From positions 1 through 64,000 of the forward strand of contig NZ_JAGMWN010000003.1 in NCBI RefSeq assembly GCF_017963645.1: a stretch of 64,000 bases of DNA. The letters run 5' to 3'. Positions 3,973 through 60,354 of this stretch are shown piece by piece; within the stretch, counting starts at the first letter, position 1, and each line of letters opens with the position of its first letter. Made by a program: the position numbers and the translations under genes. This DNA is from Marivibrio halodurans (GTDB lineage Bacteria > Pseudomonadota > Alphaproteobacteria > UBA8366 > Aestuariispiraceae). The notes under the pieces were generated by a model. That model did not search any database and was not told the origin of the DNA. It saw nothing but the letters and a program-made list of their open reading frames with translations.

Positions 3973-6045
3973 TTACGGGGTGAAGCGCCCCAGCGCCTCC
4001 CCGACCCGCGCGATCACGCCGGTCCAATCGCCGATCACCCGCTGCCGGAAGAGCCGCATGGTGGGATACCACGGGGTGGTTTCCTGGCCGCGAAGCCAAC
4101 GCCACTCGCCGCCATGGGGGATCAGGGTCCAAACCGGCCGCCCCAGCGCGCCGGCAAGATGCGCCACCGCCGTATCGACCGCGATGGTCAGGTCGCAGGC
4201 ATCGAGAATCGCCGCCGTATCGGCGAAATCCCCGATATCGCCCGCATGATCGGTGACGGCGCGCGCGCCCGGCAGGCGGGCGAGGTCGGCCGCGCGGGCG
4301 CCCAGTTGCACACTGTGAAAATCCGCGCCCTCCACCGCGAAAAGCCGGGAAAACAGATCGAAGGGCACCGACCGGTAGCGATCGTCCGAATGATTGGGCC
4401 GGCCGGCCCAGACGACCGCCACCGCCGGGCGTCCCGGGGTCCGCTCGACCGGCGCCGCGCGGCCGCCGGGAACGCGCAGATAAGGGCACTCCGCCGGGAT
4501 CGTCTCCACCCGGGTACCCATTCGGTGCGGGGCGGATAGCAGGGGTAATTGCGCATCATAGCCGATCGAGACATCGCGCTCGCCCAGATGCACGACGCGA
4601 TCGATACCGGCGTCCCGCGCCTTCTCCACCATTAGGGGATAGAGGGCCGTCTCGCACAGGAAGGTGATTTCGGCCCCGGCGCCCGCGCGTTCGCGCAATA
4701 GCGGCAGATAGCGGCAGAACTGGATCGTGTCGCCGAAGCCCTGCTCCACATGCACCAGCAGCCGCTTGCCCGACAGCGGCCGCCCATCCCACAAGGCCTT
4801 GGTCACGTCCGGCACATTGGCCTTGAAGCTCGGCATCGCGAAGCGGCTCTCATAGGCGGCCCAGCCGGTCTCGTACTGCCCGTCCATCAACAATAGCGCC
4901 GCCGGTGCGAACAGGCCCCGCGCGGCGCCCGGCTGCAAGGCCCGCACGCGCTTATAGGCGTCGGCGGCGGCCTGATACCGCTCGCACCGCATCAGGGCAT
5001 TACCGTAGCTATAGAGCAGGTCGGGGTCCGCCGGCATCTGGCGCAGCCCCTGTTCCAGCACGGCGATCGCCTCGACCGGATTGCCGAGCTTCAGGGTGAT
5101 ATGGCCGAGCCCTTTCAAGGCCCCCGGATGATTCGGTTGGATCAGCAGGGCCTGGCGCAGATGGCTGGCCGCGCGCTCCGCCCGGCCCATGCGCTCCAGC
5201 GCGGCCGCGAGATTGACATGCGCGCGCACCGTCCCCGGCGCAAGCGTCAGGCAGCGCAGGAAGGCGCGCACCGCCTCCCCGTCCCGGTCGAGTTGGTAAA
5301 GCAGGTTACCAAGACGCAGCCACCCCTCCGCCCAACCGCCTGCCCCGGATTCCGACGCGTCCAGGGCGCGGGACAGCAATTGGACGGCTTCCGTCCGCGC
5401 GGCCCTTCCGGTCGCCACATCGCCGGCACGGTCGGCCCGCGCCGCAAGCACCTCCACCTTGCCGCGCACGGCCTCGATATAATCGGGGGACAGCGCGAGC
5501 GCGCGATCGAAGGACGCGATCGCCTCTTCCCACCGCCCCGCCCGGGCCAAAAGCGCGCCGCGATTGGCATGCGGTTCGGCGAAATCGGCGCGCGCCGCGA
5601 TCGCCCGCTCATAGGCCGCCTCCGCCTCCGCGACCCGTCCCAGATCGGTCAATGTCACGCCCAGATTGTTGAGCGCCTCGGGACTGCCGGGCATGAGGGA
5701 GAGCGCCTCCTCCAGCAGGGGCAACGCCTCCCCCGCCCGTCCGGCGAGCCGCAGCATGAAGCCGTAGGTATTGAGGATCGGCCCATCCCGGCGCCCGGTG
5801 CCGGTGACCATGGTTTCGAGAAGGGCGAGCGCCTCCTCCAATCGCCCCAGCCTTTGCAAGGCGACCGCGCGGACATGGACGGCCGCGTCGCCGTGCGTAT
5901 GTTCCGCCGGCACCGTTTCCGCGCGGACGAGGGCCTCCCGCGCATCGCCACGCCGCAGGGCGTCGAGCGCCGCGGCGTACGCGTCCGTCGCATCCTCGCG
6001 TTCACTGATCCCCATCGACGCCCGCGTTTGCTCGCCCACCCCCAT
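3973..6045 (-). CDS. TPR protein with GT9-like C-terminal domain
   Basis: This 690-residue cytoplasmic protein starts with about a dozen tetratricopeptide repeats (roughly 20-400), each with the usual Ala/Gly/Leu spacing such as PEALNNLGVTLTDLGRVAEA. The C-terminal 240 residues resemble the glycosyltransferase-9/ADP-heptose transferase-like fold often found after TPRs: LLVHVEQGFGDTIQFCRYLP, a VVWAGRPNHSDD motif, and AILDACDLTIAVDTAVAHLAGALGRPVW near the end. The likely role is glycosylation, but donor and acceptor are not evident. It is convergent with the cyclase (25 bases apart) and divergent from the TRAP receptor. An in-frame ATG ten codons later is a possible start. Confidence 0.8.
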   Translation of the reverse strand: MGVGEQTRASMGISEREDATDAYAAALDALRRGDAREALVRAETVPAEHTHGDAAVHVRAVALQRLGRLEEALALLETMVTGTGRRDGPILNTYGFMLRLAGRAGEALPLLEEALSLMPGSPEALNNLGVTLTDLGRVAEAEAAYERAIAARADFAEPHANRGALLARAGRWEEAIASFDRALALSPDYIEAVRGKVEVLAARADRAGDVATGRAARTEAVQLLSRALDASESGAGGWAEGWLRLGNLLYQLDRDGEAVRAFLRCLTLAPGTVRAHVNLAAALERMGRAERAASHLRQALLIQPNHPGALKGLGHITLKLGNPVEAIAVLEQGLRQMPADPDLLYSYGNALMRCERYQAAADAYKRVRALQPGAARGLFAPAALLLMDGQYETGWAAYESRFAMPSFKANVPDVTKALWDGRPLSGKRLLVHVEQGFGDTIQFCRYLPLLRERAGAGAEITFLCETALYPLMVEKARDAGIDRVVHLGERDVSIGYDAQLPLLSAPHRMGTRVETIPAECPYLRVPGGRAAPVERTPGRPAVAVVWAGRPNHSDDRYRSVPFDLFSRLFAVEGADFHSVQLGARAADLARLPGARAVTDHAGDIGDFADTAAILDACDLTIAVDTAVAHLAGALGRPVWTLIPHGGEWRWLRGQETTPWYPTMRLFRQRVIGDWTGVIARVGEALGRFTP

Positions 6046-6204
6046 GCCATTTCCGCCACGACTATAGCAGCATGGACCATCCGACCCAGCCCGTCCGTTG
6101 GCATGATGCGTCGATTACACGTATCGGGACTTTCGGACCCCAGCCGATTTCGCGTATAACCGGGACAATCAACCATAATCATCAGGGACAGGAGGAGATA
6201 GACA

Positions 6205-7227
6205 ATGACAGTCCGATCCTGGAAGACGGCCGTGCTGGCCGGTATCGCATTCACCTTCATCGGGGGCGAGGTCGCGTCGGCGACCGAATGGAACGTCTCG
6301 CTCTGGGGCAAGCGGCGCGCCTTCACCGAGAACACGGAAAAGCTGGCCGAACTGGTAAAGGAGAAGACCAACGGCGAATTCACGCTGAACATCTCCTATG
6401 GCGGCCTTTCGAAGAACCGGGAGAATCTCGACGGAATCTCGATCGGCGCCTTCGAGATGGCGCAGTTCTGCGCCGGCTACCATGAGGACAAGAACCCCTC
6501 GATCACGGTGCTGGAACTGCCGTTCCTCGGCGTCACCTCGCTGGAGCAGGAGCGCAAGATTTCCATGGCGCTCTATGACCACCCGGCGGTGAAGGAGGAT
6601 CTGGCGCGCTGGAACGCGACGCTGCTGATGCCTTCCCCGATGCCGCAGTACAACATCATCGGCATGGGCGAGGCCCCGCGTTCCCTCCCCGAGTTCGAGG
6701 GCCTGACCGTCCGCGCCACGGGCGGCATCGGCAAGGCGATGGAGGCCATCGGCGCCGTCCCGACCTCGATGTCGGCGACCGAGGTGCGTCAGGCTCTGGA
6801 CAGCGGCGTCATCAAGGCCGCGTCCTTCGCCCCGCACGCCCATATGTCCTTCGGCACGACCGAGAACGCCGACTGGTGGACGACCAACTTGAACCCCGGA
6901 ACGGTCAATTGCCCGGTCGTGGTCAATACGGATGCGCTCAACGACCTGCCGGAGGCCCATCGCGAGGCGCTGATGAGTTCGGTCGGCGAGGCGCTCGACT
7001 ATTACGTCGACAATTACGAAAACAAGACGATGAAACGCTGGGGGCCGCTGCTCGACGAGAAGGGGATCGAGCGGATCACCTATAGCGAGGAGGCGCTGAA
7101 CGCCTTCCGCGAGAAGGTCGCGGGCCCGGCCGCGCAGGACTGGATCGAGAAGAACAAGGCGAAGGGTCTGCCCGCGCAGGAACTCTACGACTTCGCCCGG
7201 GAGAAGATCGAGGAATACGCCGAGTAA
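6205..7227 (+). CDS. TRAP transporter receptor, DctP family
   Basis: This is a 340-residue periplasmic substrate-binding protein with a signal peptide (hydrophobic core about 8-22, likely cleavage after ASA at 26). The mature part has the DctP fold hallmarks: KLAELVKEKTNGEFTLNISY near the start, the GLTVRATGGIGKAMEAIG strand after the hinge, and AKGLPAQELYDFAREKIEEY at the end. It captures an organic acid or related solute and delivers it to the permease pair encoded next (DctQ at 7346, DctM at 7994). A strong Shine-Dalgarno (GGAGGAG) lies 9 bases before the ATG. The substrate cannot be told from sequence. Confidence 0.92.
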   Translation: MTVRSWKTAVLAGIAFTFIGGEVASATEWNVSLWGKRRAFTENTEKLAELVKEKTNGEFTLNISYGGLSKNRENLDGISIGAFEMAQFCAGYHEDKNPSITVLELPFLGVTSLEQERKISMALYDHPAVKEDLARWNATLLMPSPMPQYNIIGMGEAPRSLPEFEGLTVRATGGIGKAMEAIGAVPTSMSATEVRQALDSGVIKAASFAPHAHMSFGTTENADWWTTNLNPGTVNCPVVVNTDALNDLPEAHREALMSSVGEALDYYVDNYENKTMKRWGPLLDEKGIERITYSEEALNAFREKVAGPAAQDWIEKNKAKGLPAQELYDFAREKIEEYAE

Positions 7228-7250
7228 GCTCGGCCGATCGGCCCGATCTC

Positions 7251-7270
7251 CGTCCGTCGCCGGACGGACG
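7251..7270 (+). other. Stem-loop between TRAP receptor and permease genes
   Basis: This is a perfect 8-bp stem (CGTCCGTC / GACGGACG) with a 4-base loop, 24 bases after the receptor stop codon. There is no T-run behind it. A 12-base palindrome (GGCCGATCGGCC) at 7232-7243 sits just before it. It probably protects the upstream mRNA or attenuates read-through so that more receptor than permease is made. Confidence 0.55.
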
Positions 7271-7345
7271 CGCGGCATGACCGCGTGCCTGCCGGCGGCG
7301 GACGGAGCTATCTCTCCGCCCTAATTCTTCCGGGAGCGAGCTTGC

Positions 7346-7978
7346 ATGGCCATTTCCGGCAGTGTTCTTTCCGACGACAGCGTGCTCAGCCGTCTCGACC
7401 ACGGTCTTTACAGGCTGGAGCGGGTGCTCGCCCTCGTCAGCGGCGTGGCGGTCCTCTCGCTCATGGTCCTTGCCGTGATCTCGGTCGGGGGACGCAATTT
7501 CTTCAACCAACCCCTGCCCGGCTATGTCGATTGGATCGAGCAGGCGATGCCGCTGATCGCCTTCATGGGCATCGCCTTCACCCAGCGCGACGGCGGCCAT
7601 ATCCGCATGGATATCGTGGTCGGCAAGCTCAAGGGGCGGCCGCTCTATCTGGCCGAGCTGGCGACGACCATCGCGATCCTGGTGCTGATGCTTTGTCTCG
7701 TCTGGGGCAGTTGGGCGCATTTCGATCGCAGCTTCGATTTCGCTTCGCCGCTTTGGAGCCGCGACAGCTCGATGGATATCGCGCTGCCGATCTGGCCGGC
7801 GAAGCTTCTGGCGCCGATCGCCTTCTCCGTGCTCTGCGTCCGGCTCGTGCTGCAGGTCTGGGGTTTTGGGTGGGCCTTGATCAGCGGCACGACGCGCCCC
7901 GTCGCGGTCCCGATGATCGAGGATGTGGCGACCCAGGCACGCCACGAAGCCGATTCACTGTCCGGTCGGGACGATTAG
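7346..7978 (+). CDS. TRAP transporter small permease, DctQ family
   Basis: This 210-residue inner-membrane protein has four predicted helices (about 32-55, 66-85, 105-125, 153-175). It carries the DctQ signatures VGGRNFFNQPLPGYVDWIEQ and FTQRDGGHIRMDI. It is the small membrane subunit that couples the DctP receptor to the DctM channel. A GGGAG Shine-Dalgarno precedes the ATG, and dctM starts 16 bases after the stop, so the two should be co-translated. Confidence 0.92.
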   Translation: MAISGSVLSDDSVLSRLDHGLYRLERVLALVSGVAVLSLMVLAVISVGGRNFFNQPLPGYVDWIEQAMPLIAFMGIAFTQRDGGHIRMDIVVGKLKGRPLYLAELATTIAILVLMLCLVWGSWAHFDRSFDFASPLWSRDSSMDIALPIWPAKLLAPIAFSVLCVRLVLQVWGFGWALISGTTRPVAVPMIEDVATQARHEADSLSGRDD

Positions 7979-39710: not shown

Positions 39711-40268
39711 GTGAAGCTGACCAAGACATATAGACGCCTCGTTCGCGACACCACGATCAACGACACCAGTCTGCTCTCGACGGATTATCTGAACCATTTC
39801 AATGAACTGGTGATGATGCTGGAGATGGTGGGCGACATGCCGGAGATGCTGGACGAGGCCGGCGCCTGGCGCTTCAAGTCCTATCAGCAGCATTTCGCGG
39901 ACAGTGTCTTCCAGCACAAGGATCTGGCGGTCTGGGCTTACGAGCATGCGCCGGACATCTGGCGTGAGCCGTTCGACCGCTGCACGGCGGCGGCGCGCGA
40001 ACGGATCGAGGCCGGACTGCCGCGATTGGACCGTCTTCGCGCCGGGGGGGAGACGGCGGCGATCGCGGTGGAAGCGCCCGCGCTCTCCCGCGATCTGGTC
40101 CGCCATATCGAGACGATGAGCGCCATCATCAATGCCGCCATATCGGCGGAAGAAGCCCGGGCGCTCGCCGACGGGGCGGAGCATGTGGCCGAAGGGCGTG
40201 ACGCACCGGTCCACCGGGAGGGTGCGACGACTCTCGGTCAATCGGATATCGACAAACTGTTCGATTGA
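39711..40268 (+). CDS. Conserved orphan with CheZ-like C-terminal tail
   Basis: This 185-residue, probably cytoplasmic protein has no membrane segment. It reads as mostly helical (TDYLNHFNELVMMLEMVGDMPEMLDEAG; LSRDLVRHIETMSAIINAAIS). It has no domain I can name. Its last 11 residues, LGQSDIDKLFD, nearly match the last residues of the CheZ-like protein at 58159 (ISQADIDALFD), joined to the body by a loose linker. In CheZ the C-terminal tail docks on phospho-CheY, so a receiver-binding role is inferred. It starts 50 bases after the LOG gene and may share its transcript. The start at 39711 is a GTG (GTGAAGCTGACC). Confidence 0.82.
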   Translation: MKLTKTYRRLVRDTTINDTSLLSTDYLNHFNELVMMLEMVGDMPEMLDEAGAWRFKSYQQHFADSVFQHKDLAVWAYEHAPDIWREPFDRCTAAARERIEAGLPRLDRLRAGGETAAIAVEAPALSRDLVRHIETMSAIINAAISAEEARALADGAEHVAEGRDAPVHREGATTLGQSDIDKLFD

Positions 40269-40298
40269 CGCCGGGGCGCGCCATTTTCTTTTAGAATT

Positions 40299-40308
40299 AG
40301 ATAGTCAG
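40299..40308 (+). repeat. Left 10-bp direct repeat of the AT-rich insert
   Basis: AGATAGTCAG occurs here, 31 bases after the stop of the preceding gene, and again in direct orientation at 41202-41211. The two copies bracket one gene and its regulatory region. This is the expected look of a target-site duplication or short attachment core. Confidence 0.55.
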
Positions 40309-40332
40309 GGTCGTGCAAATTAGCGTTTATAC

Positions 40333-40351
40333 TCATGTGTAACTCACATGA
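40333..40351. promoter_or_regulatory. Inverted repeat upstream of the insert gene
   Basis: A perfect 7-bp inverted repeat (TCATGTG-TAACT-CACATGA) lies about 80 bases upstream of the best promoter candidate. A regulator dimer site is possible. Confidence 0.35.
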
Positions 40352-40400
40352 CGTTCATCATTATATTGCATATTTTTGACACTCCTTAGCTTAATGATTT

Positions 40401-40414
40401 TTTATTATAATAAA
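40401..40414. promoter_or_regulatory. AT-only palindrome upstream of the insert gene
   Basis: The 14-base perfect palindrome TTTATTATAATAAA contains a consensus TATAAT (40406-40411). A consensus TTGACA lies at 40376-40381, but the 24-base spacing is too long for a normal sigma-70 promoter. The palindrome could be an operator or an IHF/HU-like bending site. Confidence 0.35.
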
Positions 40415-40429
40415 CAACAATCCCCTCTC

Positions 40430-40458
40430 TTGGTCAGTCTATTATTGTAGTATATGAT
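40430..40458 (+). promoter_or_regulatory. Sigma-70-like promoter of the insert gene
   Basis: TTGGTC (40430-40435) and TATGAT (40453-40458) are 17 bases apart and end 17 bases before the first possible start codon. It is the best-spaced promoter in the segment. Confidence 0.5.
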
Positions 40459-40475
40459 ACAGGTACTTTAAGTCG

Positions 40476-41207
40476 TTGGAGGAGATCTTGGAAAAATTAT
40501 CCGACCCTGAGCATCCGCTTTGGAGCTTCCTGCCGGAAATGACCAACGAGTTTTGGGCAGCGATCACTGGGGCAATCGTTGGCTCGGTAATTGGTGGCCT
40601 TATAACATTCGGTATACAGCGAATGTCCTTAAAGGCAGCAGAGAATGAGCGAGTTGACACGGCAAAAGATCGCCAACGTTCTTTGGGTTATTCACTGTTG
40701 TTCAAAATGGTGCGAATATACAGTGGCTTAGCTACCATGCACAACCATGTAGAGGAGTGCTTTACTCGCGCTCGCGAACAAGGCCACGGACACTTGGAAC
40801 CATGGGCCGTACTGCTTCCTATCGCCAATCCGTTGGACAAGGTTCATTTTGCCAACGAAGAAATGGCAATGTTGTTATCATTGAAGGACAATAACCTTTT
40901 CAATGACCTCGTCGCTTTGGATTCTGTCCATAACAGCACGATTGGACTTTTCCGAATGTACGGGGCGGAGCGAGGCGCGTTGCTCGAAAAGTTGCCCGCA
41001 AACATGACCGGCTTGGTCGGGAGGATTTCGCTGCCAGAAGACCAAGCCCAGCATGTGCAACCAAAAATGGCTGAGTTAAATGCACTAGTCACGGACACTC
41101 GTAAAAGATGCAAAAAAGATTACGATAAATCTTTGGATGTTCTGAACCGCTTGAACAATTTGTTAAACCAGAAACTGGAGTTGGGTGTTTCGGTGGTACC
41201 GAGATAG
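40476..41207 (+). CDS. Membrane-anchored orphan protein of the AT-rich insert
   Basis: I cannot name this protein of about 243 residues. A single membrane helix with small-residue spacing (AAITGAIVGSVIGGLITFGI, about 28-47) is followed by a basic/acidic helical stalk (QRMSLKAAENERVDTAKDRQRSLG). A cytoplasmic, mostly helical domain of about 170 residues completes it, with MVRIYSGLATMHNHVEECF and VHFANEEMAMLLSLKDNN as the most family-like blocks. Codon use and base composition differ sharply from the neighbours. Start codons are TTG at 40476 or TTG at 40488 (GGAGGAG three bases before it). A single-gene membrane sentinel or defence role is possible but unproven. Confidence 0.75.
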   Translation: MEEILEKLSDPEHPLWSFLPEMTNEFWAAITGAIVGSVIGGLITFGIQRMSLKAAENERVDTAKDRQRSLGYSLLFKMVRIYSGLATMHNHVEECFTRAREQGHGHLEPWAVLLPIANPLDKVHFANEEMAMLLSLKDNNLFNDLVALDSVHNSTIGLFRMYGAERGALLEKLPANMTGLVGRISLPEDQAQHVQPKMAELNALVTDTRKRCKKDYDKSLDVLNRLNNLLNQKLELGVSVVPR

Positions 41208-41211
41208 TCAG
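41202..41211 (+). repeat. Right 10-bp direct repeat of the AT-rich insert
   Basis: This is the second copy of AGATAGTCAG. It overlaps the TAG stop codon of the insert gene (41205-41207) and ends 21 bases before the stop of the convergent DUF4149 gene. Confidence 0.55.
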
Positions 41212-41232
41212 ACATGCTGACACCGAGCCTCC

Positions 41233-41667
41233 TCAAATCACCGCCAAGGCGCGCAGGATCAGCAGTAGAAGCAGCACCATCTGCGCCAGATTGATCATCA
41301 CGCTCGCGCGGTGCAGCCATTTGAACCGCTTGGCCGCCGCCTTTCCGCCGCTGCCTTCCGCCCCGCCTGCGAGTTCCGCGTCACGCGCGGCGTTGATCCG
41401 CCCGACCAGGACGAAACGGGAGAGCGCGAAGCCGCTCGCCACGGCCGCCAGGATCCCCGCGCCGACGAAGCCTCCTTCCCAGATCGCGACGGGCACGCCC
41501 AGACCGGCGACAGCCAGACCGGCGATATAATAGATGGGGAAGAAACCGCGCAGGAAACGCCCCGCGGTCTCTCCCTCCAGAAACCGGAAAACGCAGGGCG
41601 CGACCACGGCCGCGAAAAAGAGCATGGCCCCGAAGAGCGCCGAGGCGAGCGCGAGATGGATCGTCAT
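41233..41667 (-). CDS. DUF4149-like integral membrane protein
   Basis: This 144-residue protein has four predicted membrane helices: about 6-26 ([22 protein letters not shown]), 44-62, 68-88 and 122-142. The opening, with [24 protein letters not shown], is typical of the DUF4149 family, which has no known function. AGGAG six bases upstream supports the ATG at 41667 rather than the longer frame. It is divergent from icd. Confidence 0.8.
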
Positions 41668-41717
41668 ATCTCCTAGATAGCATCCTTCGGCGGAATGGGA
41701 AGGGCGCGGCATCGCCC

Positions 41718-58158: not shown

Positions 58159-59013
58159 CTAGTCGAACAGCGCGTCGATATCCGCCTGAGAGATTCCCTC
58201 ACCCGCGCGGGCGGGGCCGTTCAACAACGCCGCATCCTCGTCGCGCTCGATCTCCGGGATCGGCAGATCCTCGAACGCCTCGATCCCCCAGATGCCGATC
58301 ATCGCGACGATCCGTTCCTCGATATGGCGCAGCGTAGCGATCACCTTGGAGGTCCGCTGGCCGGTCAGGTCCTGGAAATTGCAGGCCTCCATGATCTTGA
58401 TCGTCGCGGCCTCGATCCGGGAACACAGCGCCTCGGCCTCGGTGTCGCCGGCGATCGTGCCCGCGAGACGGGTCAGGAGGTCCATCTGAGCCTCCGCCTG
58501 GCCCAGGATCTCGTCGGTCGCGGTCGCCGTGTCGTGGATGATCGCGTCAAGCTCGCTGCGCGCATCCTCCATCCGGTTATTGTCGGCGCCCGGATGCTTG
58601 ATATGCGCGATCTCGGCCTTCGCCTTGCCGATCATCTTGACCATGCGCGCGATCTCGATACGAACCGCCAATTCGGAATCGCCCCCCGAATCGGCGCGCC
58701 CCACCGACATCTCCGGGCTTGCCTCCTCCCCCGTCGTCGCCCGCAGAATCCTGCCCATCATCGAATGCATCTCGCCGAGTTCCGCGCGGATGGCGTCCAG
58801 TTCGGCACCCGTCGCCGCGGACCGGGGCACGCCGGCACCGTCGCCGTCGGCGTGATCGCGATCCCCCGTCTCGTCGCCATCATCCAAAGGCGCGCGCGAC
58901 CTTTCCGGCGCGGCGGGGCCGGCGGACACCGATGGCACGGAAGGGTCGAGGGACAAGTCCCGCTCCGCGCGGAAGCGCTTTCTGCCAAGAGATCCGGGAG
59001 AGGATTGCGTCAT
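58159..59013 (-). CDS. cheZ: CheZ-like phospho-CheY phosphatase
   Basis: This 284-residue protein has a disordered, acidic N-terminus (to about 70), then long helices. The catalytic CheZ motif is NFQDLTGQ (212-219): Asp215 and Gln219 correspond to Asp143 and Gln147 of E. coli CheZ. The last residues, ISQADIDALFD, form the CheY-binding tail. It should speed dephosphorylation of CheY-P and so tune the flagellar motor. No cheA or cheY lies next to it. The tail is shared with the protein at 39711. Confidence 0.87.
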   Translation of the reverse strand: MTQSSPGSLGRKRFRAERDLSLDPSVPSVSAGPAAPERSRAPLDDGDETGDRDHADGDGAGVPRSAATGAELDAIRAELGEMHSMMGRILRATTGEEASPEMSVGRADSGGDSELAVRIEIARMVKMIGKAKAEIAHIKHPGADNNRMEDARSELDAIIHDTATATDEILGQAEAQMDLLTRLAGTIAGDTEAEALCSRIEAATIKIMEACNFQDLTGQRTSKVIATLRHIEERIVAMIGIWGIEAFEDLPIPEIERDEDAALLNGPARAGEGISQADIDALFD

Positions 59014-59316
59014 GATGAGGATGCTCGTTCGATTAAGTCGCCGGTTCGACGATTACCATGGCCGGAGAACCGCGCCCGAACGCACGTAACTCCGTATTCT
59101 CTCAGGTACTATCATGCCTCAAATTCCTTTTTTGGAGGTTAACGCTTCATCCATTCCCGTTTAATAAGGACGTGGGTGCAGGTCGGTTTTCCACTCTCGA
59201 CGTCCATGCGATGATACAGGTTAGCCGTTTTCCTTCAACGAGGTGACGATCAAGCAAGAATCCCGGTGCGGCGGGCGGGGCGCCAGGCGGTTCAACGAAC
59301 GGGAAGACACGAAACG
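59014..59316. other. Noncoding gap between divergent genes
   Basis: These 303 bases separate the CheZ gene from the orphan at 59317. The middle (about 59090-59180) is AT-richer than its surroundings and must hold the promoters. I see no tRNA, strong hairpin or repeat. A 62-codon open frame at 59058 has no ribosome binding site or homology that I recognise. Confidence 0.4.
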
Positions 59317-60354
59317 ATGACGGATCAAGCGGAGCTCGTTCCCACCGACAAGGAACGGGACAGCCTGCATATATTGCCGCTATGCATCGTGCCTCTCGAA
59401 ACGCCGGGGCTTCGACGCGCGCGGCTCGTCAAGAACAACCGGATCGAGACCATGATCGAGCTGTTCAAGGCGAGCGGCAGCGGCAGCGGCCAGGTCACGC
59501 TGCGCGACCTGCCGGGCTTCTTCCCCACGGCCAACGAGGCCGCCTTCAAGAGCGATATCCACAAGATCGGCGCGCTCGCTCGTATTCCGAGTTTCGACGT
59601 CTATTCCTGCCGAATATCCCTGCGCGCTCTGGGCATCCAGGTCGACGAGCACACGCACCTGCAATTGTCCGACACGAAGAAATCCGAACTTACCGAACGG
59701 ATGAAGGCCTTCACGGCGCCGCTGATCAAGAATGTCTACGGTCAGGATACCAAGGACGTGGCGGATGCGGGCGACCTCAGCGCCATGCTGCGCAACCCGG
59801 ATAAGGAAGAGGCGCTGCGCCGGCTCACCATGCTGGCGGAGAAGCTGAATGTCTCGCTGGAGGATATCCCGCGTTTCGTGGAGGATTACGGCGACGTCTT
59901 CCTTTCCCTCGCTTTCTTCCAGGACAAGCTCGACGAGGTCGTTCCGACGCTCAACACCTTCCTGGGCTGGGTCGCCGACCTCCGCCAGAGCTGGCAGGTG
60001 CGCAATGATCGTTCCCAGGACCGAATCCTGGACACGATCGTTGCCGACCTCTCCGACATCTCCGGCTCGATCACCGGCCGGTTCGAGAGTTTCGAGCGCA
60101 AGACGCAGGATTTCTGGACGGACATCTCGGCCGAGCGGTTCAAGGAGGTGCGCGACCTGGTCACCGCGCATCACGTCACGGTGGGCGGTGTTCTGTGCGG
60201 ACTCACGCTCAAGCTCGACCTCTGGCAGGAGCGCTTTCCCGACCGGAATTCCGGCGGCCCGCAACAACGGATCGAATTCTGCATCAGCGAGATCATGCCG
60301 GGCCTCGATCATATCAAGCGGCTGGAGGCCCGGGCCGCCAAGAGCGGTAACTGA
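59317..60354 (+). CDS. Conserved cytoplasmic protein of unknown function
   Basis: I do not recognise this 345-residue protein. There is no signal peptide or membrane helix. It reads as mostly helical: LTERMKAFTAPLIKNVYGQD, DKEEALRRLTMLAEKLNVSLEDIPRFVEDYG and a coiled-coil-like stretch around 240-290 (RILDTIVADLSDISGSITGRFESFERKTQDFW). It is divergent from the CheZ gene and is followed by the subtilase gene after five bases. A signalling or motility link is only suggested by position. GGGAAG precedes the ATG at 59317, which is preferred over the longer frame. Confidence 0.78.
   Translation: MTDQAELVPTDKERDSLHILPLCIVPLETPGLRRARLVKNNRIETMIELFKASGSGSGQVTLRDLPGFFPTANEAAFKSDIHKIGALARIPSFDVYSCRISLRALGIQVDEHTHLQLSDTKKSELTERMKAFTAPLIKNVYGQDTKDVADAGDLSAMLRNPDKEEALRRLTMLAEKLNVSLEDIPRFVEDYGDVFLSLAFFQDKLDEVVPTLNTFLGWVADLRQSWQVRNDRSQDRILDTIVADLSDISGSITGRFESFERKTQDFWTDISAERFKEVRDLVTAHHVTVGGVLCGLTLKLDLWQERFPDRNSGGPQQRIEFCISEIMPGLDHIKRLEARAAKSGN

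Follow-up and report, generated by a model that had tools for sequence, protein, structure and literature searches.

The entry of islets without mobility genes into genomes is poorly understood. Integron gene cassettes measure about 1 kb and consist of one AT-rich gene. LMOf2365_0481 and SSI-2, which lie in the Listeria lmo0443-lmo0449 hot spot, are inserts of one or two genes between core genes (PMC5541211). The H47 genomic island of E. coli has no recombinase of its own and is flanked by direct repeats, between which RecA-independent recombination is supplied by the host (PMC5426353). This island spans 13 kb, its repeats are long and imperfect, and its excision has been seen by experiment (PMC5426353).

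The locus described here lies in a window of 64,000 nucleotides (the whole stretch of DNA that was analysed) from Marivibrio halodurans. It consists of an AT-rich patch with a single gene, bracketed by a 10-bp direct repeat and flanked by conserved host genes (Table 1). With a probability of roughly 0.6, the patch is an islet of about 0.9 kb that was acquired in a one-off event and carries the repeat as the scar of its insertion.

Table 1. Features of the islet and of the host genes on either side (window positions)
Feature	Position	Strand	Remark
Left host gene, 185 aa, ends LGQSDIDKLFD (CheZ/FliM-like tail)	39711..40268	+	conserved in congener
AT-rich patch (acquired islet, very probably)	40283..41215	.	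best-fit edges, GC likelihood segmentation; absent in congener G001
Left copy of 10-bp direct repeat AGATAGTCAG	40299..40308	+	exact match
AT-rich non-coding leader of gene	40309..40487	+	33.5% GC
Gene, 239-aa protein, TTG start behind GGAGGAG	40488..41207	+	homologues L034, L030/L035 align full length
Right copy of AGATAGTCAG	41202..41211	+	contains gene's stop codon TAG, 41205-41207
Right host gene (DUF4149)	41233..41712	-	conserved in congener, 66% identity

The AT-rich patch and its locus in a congener

The enclosed DNA is AT-richer than its surroundings, as an earlier note on this stretch had pointed out: positions 40299-41211 have 45.0% GC, with 47.9% in the open reading frame (ORF) and the lowest value in the leader, compared to 65.2% in the window. 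Two runs below 54% GC occur in the 64 kb window and the islet patch is by far the deeper of the pair. The other run, at 58951-59375, reaches a minimum of 52.7% and lies between ORFs on opposite strands. The codon use, which had also been described as different from that of both flanks, is less clear-cut. The GC3 of the ORF is 54% and that of three neighbour genes 76-79%, but the isocitrate dehydrogenase gene next door has only 58%, so that codon bias taken by itself says less than total GC.

The patch edges were placed by a two-edge likelihood fit of GC that was blind to the repeat (support 40222-40291 for the left edge and 41165-41305 for the right one). Both exact copies of AGATAGTCAG are found in direct orientation where the earlier note had located them, 903 bp apart from start to start, and the second one does overlap the stop codon of the gene. 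The right copy agrees with the fitted edge; the left one is displaced by 8-16 bp into the AT-rich side, as positions 40283-40298 (ATTTTCTTTTAGAATT) are AT-rich too. A scan of both strands of the 4.18 Mb genome detected these two exact copies only, in the same direction. Since the reversed control pattern is likewise present in 2 copies genome-wide, about two is the chance number per genome, and it is the placement of the copies that matters.

In the sole other genome of the genus that was compared (G001, L003), the LOG, CheZ-tail, DUF4149 and isocitrate dehydrogenase genes keep the order and orientation that they have in the window, to which they are about 76-81% identical in DNA sequence, but the gene is missing. 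Such a collinear locus lacking the gene had been predicted, together with a single AGATAGTCAG at the empty site. No AGATAGTCAG is present there, but the stop codons of the convergent flanking genes are separated by only 14 bp (gatttaagcgtctg) in G001 versus 964 bp in the window. A clean empty site would have 61 bp here and the 14 bp are unalignable, hence the two intergenic regions are too diverged to be used for this part of the prediction. Searches of the family's other genomes did not find the gene in any of them, and at this locus it is missing from every other relative searched. The CheZ/FliM-like CheY-docking tail of the left host gene has a counterpart within the window, as a second gene with such a tail (ISQADIDALFD) is located at 58159-59013 on the minus strand.

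The gene, its product and its homologues

The predicted product consists of one glycine-zipper transmembrane (TM) helix followed by a helical bundle, and the family has a length of about 240 aa. Translation could alternatively begin with a TTG at 40476 or, further on, with the ATG in 'EMTNEFW'. An AlphaFold model (mean pLDDT 70, pTM 0.65, low in the TM part) places helices at residues 20-53, 56-97, 135-168 and 184-230. Conserved in the alignment are the glycine-rich TM helix, FWxAIxGAxxGxxxGG, and a segment EPWxxxLPxANxxxxxHFxxxEMxMLLxLK. The protein has no match in Pfam and NCBIfam at curated cut-offs and none in the PDB. The glycine-rich TM segment gave sub-threshold NCBIfam, Pfam and PHROG matches (E 3e-4 or weaker, and below curated cut-offs where these are set), which were attributed to TM and low-complexity similarity. 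A fold comparison with the PDB returned generic helical bundles only, the best with an E value of 0.12. The leader matches no Rfam RNA family and contains one weak sigma-70-like site at 40431-40458, which does not stand out from shuffles; nor did a promoter and terminator scan give anything above shuffles. Gene and leader each occur only once in the genome.

Homologues were searched for in 191 relatives, two draws of 385 class genomes, 398 phylum genomes and 200 relatives of G783, and by scanning 84,980 species genomes for a pattern, a method that relies on short exact peptide matches, so that distant members may escape it. Only two true homologues emerged from these searches, L034 (49% identity) from a Rhodospirillales MAG and L030/L035 (41-42%) from an Alphaproteobacteria MAG that belongs to the window's own order. 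Among the other genomes of the order that were searched, only G028 has the gene, and there it occupies another site. Weak matches in G209 and G584, covering about 55 residues within large ORFs at E values of 1e-3 to 1e-4, were taken as chance. No homologue was found among plasmids, phages and viral contigs. The libraries searched contain no name for the family, and three members are too few to judge its importance.

The patch around the L034 homologue has about 39% GC (fitted edges 5718-6744), and its flanks have 57% GC. According to the translations, the homologue is neighboured by a toxin-antitoxin-like pair, in which a GNAT-like protein accompanies a DUF1778-like antitoxin, and on the other side by a sarcosine dehydrogenase-like gene. 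The GNAT-like and DUF1778-like pair adjoins the homologue at L034:4959-5746. The L035 patch has 50-56% GC and extends over 5822-7701, with flanks of about 67% GC in which a glutamate-1-semialdehyde aminotransferase-like gene and a CaiB-type CoA transferase are read from the translations. This larger AT-rich patch contains two genes, one of which is the homologue. Immediately after the stop codon of the homologue begins a 285-aa ORF (L030:2239-3096, equal to L035:6739-7596) with the sequence VDW...LLDVKRR, a possible PD-(D/E)XK nuclease core. The ORF has no family match and no PDB sequence match, and its fold model is unreliable (mean pLDDT 41).

A facultative membrane-associated function in defence or stress is the role we favour, on weak evidence: the distribution of the gene is patchy, one homologue is followed by the possible PD-(D/E)XK gene and another one sits beside the toxin-antitoxin-like pair. 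In PADLOC, which catalogues defence proteins, neither the gene nor a homologue nor the L030 neighbour has a match.

The 3' end of the gene agrees with a junction in the right repeat. The protein ends in ...LELGVSVVPR, about 5-8 residues short of the ends of both homologues (...LELAVSVASKLEADA and ...LGLAYKLESKVKPTVASA). The homology ceases about 6 bp before the right repeat, inside which the stop codon lies. A fragment may have broken within the tail of the gene, with the stop being supplied by the DNA to which it was joined. This reading is only suggestive, because the C-terminal tails vary among the homologues anyway.

Origin of the islet and of the repeat

Horizontal acquisition is very probable and well supported, since the congener's locus lacks the gene, the GC content is foreign and the rare homologues are found at unrelated sites. 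The patch has the attributes of a genomic islet: it is absent from the collinear locus of the congener, its composition is unlike that of the host and its homologues occupy non-syntenic places. According to the proposed route, horizontal transfer would have brought in a fragment of about 0.9 kb, whose single gene belongs to a rare single-pass membrane protein family, and this fragment would have been inserted into the short spacer where two host genes converge. The repeat, which is probably linked with the junction of the islet, would most likely be the scar of this insertion; we infer both its role as a junction and its origin. It might have arisen when a staggered break was filled in, duplicating the target, or when a small circle recombined at a 10-bp identity. 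The event was probably a one-off and not the hop of a dedicated element; to account for it, nothing more is needed than illegitimate insertion driven by the host or the recombination of a small circle at a short identity.

A direct 10-mer common to both fitted edges (+/-30-50 bp) was obtained in 2-4 of 1500 dinucleotide shuffles, and in 5-10 of 2000 when the regions were centred on the repeats; taken together, about 0.1-0.5% of composition-matched shuffles have a 10-mer shared by the edges. These figures agree with the earlier note's judgement that a chance match at both edges is unlikely, but the judgement is tempered by the freedom with which the place was chosen and by the 909 exact direct 10-mer pairs that are spaced 500-2000 bp apart in the window. 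Moreover, 12 of 419 arbitrary region pairs at the spacing of the islet have a 10-mer in common, and the left copy is up to 16 bp off the fitted edge. That the gene is foreign and the repeat a coincidence unrelated to the junctions is nevertheless unlikely, given the shuffle frequencies and the position of the genome's only two copies, both at the edges of the patch. Another alternative regards the gene as ancestral and lost by the congener. With just two genomes of the genus to compare, there is room for such a loss, but the foreign composition and the absence of the gene from the other genomes searched in the family and in the order, except G028 with its different site, make it very improbable. 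The patch might also be what remains of a larger island (a phage, an integrative element or a defence island) after the deletion of its recombinase and its other genes, with the repeat as an old att pair or a deletion scar. The two-gene patch of L030/L035 and the toxin-antitoxin-like pair beside L034 point in this direction; the genes of an island, however, have left no trace in the 0.9 kb, the spacer between the convergent genes shows no apparent tRNA-type target and the data do not need an additional deletion step, all of which keeps the likelihood of this history low.

The earlier note had interpreted the patch as a small piece of cargo that an enzyme working in trans had moved. The insertion of one foreign gene stands, with a congener that lacks it and homologues at unrelated sites. 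The trans-acting enzyme is not supported. A transposase or tyrosine recombinase that mobilized a non-autonomous cargo, leaving the repeat as a target duplication or att core, would fit a direct repeat that closely brackets a single gene as well as the occurrence of one gene family at three unrelated sites. Yet the islet has no terminal inverted repeats (2/20 positions in register), as the note itself had observed, and local alignment in direct orientation found nothing in common between the ends of the three insertion sites above shuffles. In a single reverse-complement comparison, between the upstream regions of the window and L034, the score was reached by 4 of 300 shuffles, and many comparisons were made. 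The L034 and L035 sites are also devoid of edge repeats, the longest common stretch being 5-7 bp as in shuffles. The gene would have been expected elsewhere with other flanks and similar short repeats; two unrelated sites were indeed found, but without comparable edge repeats, and the orthologous loci recovered for the two homologue sites do not include the site itself. In each of the three genomes the gene is single-copy, as is the leader in its own genome, and no match to the gene turned up in plasmids, phages or viral contigs. A dedicated enzyme acting in trans should leave common ends, and three unrelated entries without common machinery therefore point to sporadic horizontal acquisition. 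Movement in trans is accordingly quite improbable. Still further reaching, and very improbable indeed, is the idea that the gene represents a family of small mobile cargo genes not described so far, which might encode membrane-anchored phage-defence effectors, spread singly among alphaproteobacteria by means of a trans recombinase and leave a 10-bp duplication behind.

Comparison with described systems

With its one AT-rich gene and its size close to 1 kb, the islet resembles an integron cassette, and no attC-like site could be recognised by eye in the 25 bp from the stop codon to the flank or in positions 41100-41232. With the H47 island it has in common the lack of its own recombinase and the direct repeats at its flanks, but it measures only 0.9 kb and its repeat has 10 bp. 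Like the Listeria islets with their one or two accessory genes, it lies amid conserved core genes and has no mobility gene. It differs from them in the identity of the genes and in the 10-bp repeat at its edges, and the comparison with a single congener shows no hot spot. Among such islets, it represents a clean small case in which a single gene was acquired amid core genes and may have left a scar at the junction.
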